Positions 35,735 through 64,000 of a stretch of 64,000 nucleotides of DNA are shown one piece after another (the first letter of the stretch is position 1; each line of letters begins with the position of its first letter). The notes under the pieces were generated by a model. That model saw nothing but the letters and a program-made list of their open reading frames with translations. It did not search any database and was not told the DNA's origin. The DNA comes from Arenicola marina (taxonomy: Eukaryota; Annelida; Polychaeta; Arenicolidae). The DNA lies in contig OZ025256.1 in the NCBI GenBank assembly GCA_964019135.1, positions 16,561,911 through 16,625,910 of the forward strand, given 5' to 3'. The position numbers were made by a program, and so were the translations under genes.

Positions 35735-36050
35735 ACCACTCATTTCTTGCTGTGAAGGCCGATCTGCTGGTGTATCCAGTTCAGGCAGGATTCGGCAGAG
35801 AGCACTCATTTCTTGCTGAAGAGACCGATCTGCTGGTGTATCCAGTTCAGGCAGGATTCGGCAGAGAGCACTCATTTCTTGCTGAAGAGACCGATCTGCT
35901 GGTGTATCCAGTTCAGGCAGGATTCGGCAGAGAGCACTCATTTCTTGCTGAAGAGACCGATCTGCTGGTGTATCCAGTTCAGGCAGGATTCGGCAGAGAG
36001 CACTCATTTCTTGCTGAAGAGACCGATCTGTTGGTGTATCCATTCTATAT
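35735..36050 (-). repeat. 66-bp tandem repeat of the protease gene's last codons and stop
   Basis: Four extra copies of a 66-bp unit lie directly after the stop codon of the minus-strand gene. Each unit repeats ACTGGATACACCAGCAGATC, GGTCTCTTCAGCAAGAAATG and AGTGCTCTCTGCC, that is, the sequence coding [12 protein letters not shown] plus the stop and the first 3'-UTR bases. Because 66 is a multiple of 3, the copied stop codons are all in the gene's frame. Confidence 0.9.

Positions 36051-64000: not shown

Follow-up and report, generated by a model that had tools for sequence, protein, structure and literature searches.

The window, that is, the whole 64,000-nucleotide stretch of DNA that we analysed, belongs to a contig of 43 Mb in an assembly of 867 Mb and carries on its minus strand a gene that we modelled as 36 exons from 64000 to 36004 with a single open frame throughout; the window cuts this splice model at its 5' end, and the true 5' end of the gene lies beyond it. 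Exons were picked via hand-chosen domain or peptide motifs, and splice sites were scored by a script requiring matching phases; the acceptor of E30 was placed at 41722 in the first model and at 41629 in the version used for later counts. Pfam searches with the spliced protein, submitted in two pieces, detected MAM, Ldl_recept_a, SRCR_2 and Trypsin, with two trypsin domains. When the first piece was compared with the PDB, LRP2 chains scored highest through their LDLa repeats, and the best protease was enteropeptidase (7wqx). Judged from its predicted sequence, the gene product is an enteropeptidase-like mosaic of MAM, LDLa, SRCR and trypsin domains. The borders of interest in this model are the donors of E11 (56807), E12 (56081) and E25 (45916), the acceptors of E15 (53325) and E20 (49509), and the stop codon at 36004, and the exon borders given in the original prediction match them to the base. 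Elsewhere in the window we noted a 27-bp array of about 103 copies at 1-2767, that is, at the window edge, with several frames of either strand open; a pair of long open frames, related to each other and containing tandem repeats rich in proline and alanine (14041-16272 and 24800-27078), each with a 30-bp array near it (12667-13921 and 23531-24620); and a reverse-transcriptase-like frame at 21697-23409, recognized by eye. No RNA families were found in the window at gathering thresholds.

The mitochondrial contig (15,942 bp) carries its genes on one strand in the order cox1-cox2-cox3-nad6-cob-atp6-nad5-nad4L-nad4-rRNA-nad1-nad3-nad2, where the rRNA was called from a gap with tRNA-Val, nad2 by elimination, nad6 below the Pfam cut-off and cox3 by eye. 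The excerpted text of an earlier study lists as derived positions restricted to annelids and their kin those of atp6 between cob and nad5, nad5 before nad4L and nad4, and nad3 between nad1 and nad2 (PMC2639372). Since the mitochondrial gene order shows such annelid-restricted positions, the host is an annelid. A cephalochordate (amphioxus) host, suggested by the literature on 'mirages' (see below), is ruled out by the same gene order; structurally, a mirage is defined with no reference to the host taxon. The assembly size of 867 Mb also speaks against amphioxus, whose genomes are smaller. Searches for the GFP and bindin families found no match, but the controls were equally negative, and these searches carry little weight.

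The host gene and the tandem arrays at its exon borders are as follows.

36004..64000, minus strand: host gene (splice model, Pfam and PDB comparison)
54854..56098, minus strand: 56-bp array of 22 copies straddling the donor of E12 (exon 56081-56217) (TRF and unit register)
49451..50462, minus strand: 104-bp array of 10 copies straddling the acceptor of E20 (exon 49179-49509) (TRF and unit splitting)
44494..45918, minus strand: 85/86-bp array in the E25-E26 intron (TRF to 45035, remainder joined by hand)
35724..36042, minus strand: 66-bp array of 5 copies, the last diverged (TRF and unit splitting)
53331..53374, minus strand: (CATTT)n microsatellite in the pyrimidine tract of the E15 acceptor (exon 53176-53325) (TRF and gene model)
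56701..56805, minus strand: (GTCAAG)n microsatellite starting within the E11 donor (exon 56807-57090) (TRF and gene model)

The 56-bp array reaches 18 bp into E12, and its 22 copies, including the authentic one, keep an exact 56-bp register in which every unit carries the exon edge and the donor region. The copy adjoining the exon is the end of E12 itself, with TGTCCC at the exon end followed by GTGAGT. None of the 21 interior copies (window 54854-56056) keeps GTGAGT; instead, each carries exactly one change in this hexamer, at position +1 (4 copies), +3 (14 copies) or +5 (3 copies), giving 14 GTCAGT, 4 CTGAGT and 3 GTGATT, so that GT is retained in 17 of the 21. Read-through from E12 into the array soon reaches a stop codon (frame 56332-56003). 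When the array was queried against the 867-Mb assembly, in a search that scored one candidate region and skipped common words, all nine matches listed lay within the array itself.

The 104-bp array reaches 59 bp into E20 and has CTAG at the acceptor position in 10/10 copies, the decoy AG being intact in 9/9; TRF also reports a three-unit (308-bp) higher-order pattern at 49460-50462. For the 85-86 bp array, TRF gave the range 44494-45035; a manual extension that passes over a retroelement-like insert (about 45101-45797; plus strand, zinc-knuckle-like frame, both insert and frame recognized by eye) brings its end to 45918. This array enters E25 (exon 45916-46032) by only 3 bp: its outermost partial unit supplies the E25 donor and scarcely any exon sequence, and the six exon bases ACTGCC are found in one of the eight other copies. 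The statement that the 86-bp array was built from an exon edge is therefore weak. Its decoys read GTAAGC in 3/8 cases and begin with GT in 6/8. The 66-bp unit joins the last 13 codons of E36 (36004-36198; 12 residues plus the stop) to downstream sequence; the array reaches 39 bp into the exon, at the stop codon, and as 66 bp equal 22 codons the repeat stays in frame. The two microsatellites do abut exons as originally described, being separated from them by 5 bp (at 53325) and 1 bp (at 56807).

If a boundary-spanning unit is one that holds exon sequence, intron sequence and a splice site, the 56-bp and 104-bp arrays are made of such units, the 86-bp array is not clearly so, and the 66-bp array, which runs across the stop codon, contains no splice site. 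The original prediction had the four arrays starting exactly at exon borders and built from the exon edges themselves. The former does not hold, as the overlap with the exon is 18 bp for the 56-bp array, 59 bp for the 104-bp array, 39 bp (at the stop codon) for the 66-bp array and 3 bp for the 86-bp array; the latter stands for the 56-bp and 104-bp arrays (exon plus splice site) and for the 66-bp array (last codons plus stop), but hardly for the 86-bp array, which has no more than the donor and three to six bases of the exon. In those arrays that we examined, the outermost unit is attached to the body of the exon and holds the true boundary, as placed by the gene model.

To judge chance within the window, we combined the TRF rows of the gene region manually, which gave 18 arrays, and applied random block placement to 17 of them, with the in-exon array 47001-47032 dropped. 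Four of the 17 arrays touch an exon (one at the stop codon) versus 2.56 expected (P 0.24), and five lie within 5 bp of one versus 2.81 expected (P 0.12). Eight of the 17 lie no more than 15 bp from an edge versus 3.48 expected (P 0.0065), where 15 bp is one of three cut-offs tried and the window had been picked for looking striking. With a random founder unit of its own period for each array, 1.93 of the 18 would be expected to straddle an edge; for the seven arrays with periods of at least 50 bp the expectation is 1.45 straddlers (P 0.16 for at least three, 0.037 for at least four). The number of straddlers in the window is thus nominally unusual if the weak 86-bp case is included as the fourth.

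For a comparison beyond this gene, we built a sample on LDLa exons, because their edges are callable, from 30 loci around the top LDLa matches (the window's own one left out) and ten 10-kb stretches, merged into 22 stretches totalling 150,808 bp. It is a small sample of top-scoring LDLa genes from few contigs, with edges called by script. TRF arrays, 103 in number, cover 41,063 of the 150,808 bp (about 27%). Five examples of straddling arrays were found in other genes of the genome, all on contig C20.

C20:28367655-28370655 (L042 7655-10000 plus L043 1-655): 57-bp array of 53 copies at the acceptor of an LDLa exon
C20: 87-bp array at a donor
C20: 76-bp array of 13 copies at an acceptor
C20, L048 1539-1927: 20-bp array at an exon donor
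C20: diverged 92-bp pair at a donor

Boundary-straddling arrays are thus not peculiar to the enteropeptidase-like gene, as seen on few contigs and in LDLa genes. Their decoy sites vary in state. In the 57-bp array, AG is kept by 9 of the 52 extra copies and absent from 43, and eight columns, including the G of AG, show a base other than that of the authentic unit in the majority of copies. The decoy acceptor AG of the 76-bp array is intact in 12/12 copies. The 20-bp array has 20 matches, of which one in the exon was dropped to leave one authentic donor and 18 decoys; GTAAGT is present in 17/18 of these, forming equal donors spaced 20 bp apart. Two of the three extra copies of the 87-bp array also read GTAAGT. 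Intact decoys are therefore common, and the degradation in two arrays may reflect selection or the spread of a few mutations. From the 56-bp array (0/21 full donors) one might expect decoys to be disarmed throughout, but other arrays show that this does not hold generally. The earlier suggestion that decoy splice sites are tolerated fits these observations, full decoy sites being retained in several arrays.

In a looser set of 121 LDLa edges, 4 of 102 arrays straddle an edge versus 2.77 expected (P 0.30), these being the 57-, 76- and 92-bp arrays and a duplication on C3 (370 bp, 1.9 copies, reaching 10 bp into an exon). A stricter set, with 122 edges from 61 phase-1 exons, yields two straddlers among 103 arrays versus 3.12 expected. 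The 87-bp and 20-bp donor arrays fall outside the looser edge set, and the 20-bp array lies within the stricter one. We also searched for local copies, taking 40 bp centred on an edge and requiring an ungapped copy of at least 30/40 within 1200 bp. Such copies were found for 3/71 edges in the window (one being the stop codon) versus 242/1000 intron points, and for 7/121 edges in the sample, four of which belong to two neighbouring paralogous exons and not to arrays, versus 407/1483 noncoding points. The thresholds 26, 28 and 32 gave the same direction as 30. Edges are thus depleted in local repeats, carrying them about five times more rarely than noncoding points, among which long arrays are counted many times. 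This depletion is expected if exon sequence is constrained. In the sample, 10/102 arrays end at an edge or no more than 15 bp from it, versus 5.24 expected (P 0.025), the P values at 0, 5 and 30 bp being 0.39, 0.51 and 0.077. We read the roughly twofold pile-up within 15 bp, seen in both window and sample, as a mild, uncorrected sign of arrays halting at a constrained splice signal; it is the one result that leans towards seeding, as seeding at exon edges would predict it too. The original prediction had named a test that would speak against such seeding, namely arrays at exon edges in no excess across the genome. Applied to the LDLa-gene sample, that test goes against seeding, with straddlers near expectation in both edge sets and edges poorer in local repeats than noncoding points.

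Taken together, the arrays are in our view probably intronic minisatellites of the ordinary kind, in a repeat-rich genome, that go back to a duplication across an exon edge. Tandem duplications would arise anywhere, by slippage or unequal exchange, mechanisms that we infer, as we do correct splicing. A founder unit that crosses an exon edge would leave the protein unchanged while splicing uses the site by the exon body, and an array of this kind would therefore survive and, as the anatomy suggests, grow into the intron. The outermost unit would remain the authentic edge, while interior copies would drift and homogenise; the interior copies do show multi-unit patterns typical of repeat turnover, including the 308-bp TRF row. 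The anatomy of the arrays, the repeat-rich background and the lack of a significant excess of straddlers in the sample are directly observed, and no special edge mechanism is needed, as straddling is about as frequent as chance predicts in the sampled, repeat-full introns. However, adding the 87-bp and 20-bp donor arrays would raise the count to six against an expectation slightly above 2.8.

Active seeding of tandem growth by exon edges, perhaps through splicing-linked R-loops or replication stalling at junctions, seems to us quite unlikely: although several cases occur within one gene and array ends pile up about twofold within 15 bp (8/17 versus 3.5; 10/102 versus 5.2), straddlers show no significant excess (4 versus 2.77; 2 versus 3.12), edges are about five times rarer in local repeats than noncoding points, and the sample P values at 0, 5 and 30 bp are 0.39, 0.51 and 0.077. 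A role of selection, by which growth would halt on reaching the splice signal and strong decoys would be inactivated, is possible though on balance doubtful. The accumulation of array ends just outside splice signals would fit it, as would the loss of GTGAGT from all 21 interior 56-bp copies by one donor change each and the retention of AG in only 9/52 decoys of the 57-bp array. However, decoys are kept in 12/12 (76 bp), 17/18 (20 bp) and 9/9 (104 bp) cases, GT persists in 17/21 copies of the 56-bp array, homogenisation of a few changes could yield the pattern of that array, and the 57-bp array differs from its authentic unit in eight columns overall, not in AG alone. The title of one paper links intronic minisatellites to splicing choices in Caenorhabditis elegans (PMC4039745), yet a function of the arrays in regulated alternative splicing is very unlikely, given that units of 56, 104 and 85 bp are not multiples of three and that decoy use at E12 would truncate the protein through the early stop. 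We give hardly any weight to an assembly artefact in which collapsed or inflated repeats were misplaced beside exons. Long arrays do assemble poorly, and copy numbers may err, but the nine assembly matches listed for the 56-bp array all lie within it, its copies differ in ordered patterns, and the gene model runs on either side of the arrays.

Boundary-straddling minisatellites extend beyond amphioxus to an annelid with repeat-crowded sampled introns, at a rate near that of random placement, and the sample result tempers claims of edge seeding based on a single gene. The arrays are also natural test pieces for exon definition, each setting one true site beside 3 to 52 near-copies, intact or degraded. 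Tentatively, boundary arrays like those of amphioxus might occur at a few percent of the exon borders of this annelid and present up to dozens of decoys, some intact (17/18 GTAAGT). Should splicing still be faithful, the choice of site would have to come from the exon side rather than from the sequence of the site, and the arrays might be raw material for intron gain, arisen independently in two phyla.

Among known systems, enteropeptidase and other mosaic serine proteases share MAM, LDLa, SRCR and trypsin domains with the host gene, whose model differs from them in having two protease halves. The earthworm metallothionein gene offers, like the host gene, an annelid intron with minisatellites: monomers with means of 178 and 181 bp lie in its intron 1, and duplicated exon 4 copies are absent from its transcript (PMC12783039). 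In contrast to the host-gene arrays, boundary-spanning units are not described in the excerpted text of that report (PMC12783039). Among the literature matches listed, exon-boundary tandem repeats are named mirages only for amphioxus, and none is an annelid report of boundary-spanning arrays. Mirages, as the excerpts of two amphioxus studies define them, are minisatellites spanning exon-intron boundaries, found in Adh3, the globins BflGb6 and BflGb9, PGBD5 and troponin C, with units of 10-160 bp that hold part of an exon, a splice site and intron sequence and many of which keep AG or GT; undisturbed splicing is reported there for the Adh3 and globin mirages, and a role in intron gain is proposed (PMC3087553, PMC3902484). 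As far as these excerpts go, the annelid arrays resemble mirages in that their units hold an exon part, a splice site and intron sequence on either the donor or the acceptor side, and differ from them in their annelid host, in their copy numbers, which rise to 22 within the window and to 53 on C20, and in being described here from one assembly.
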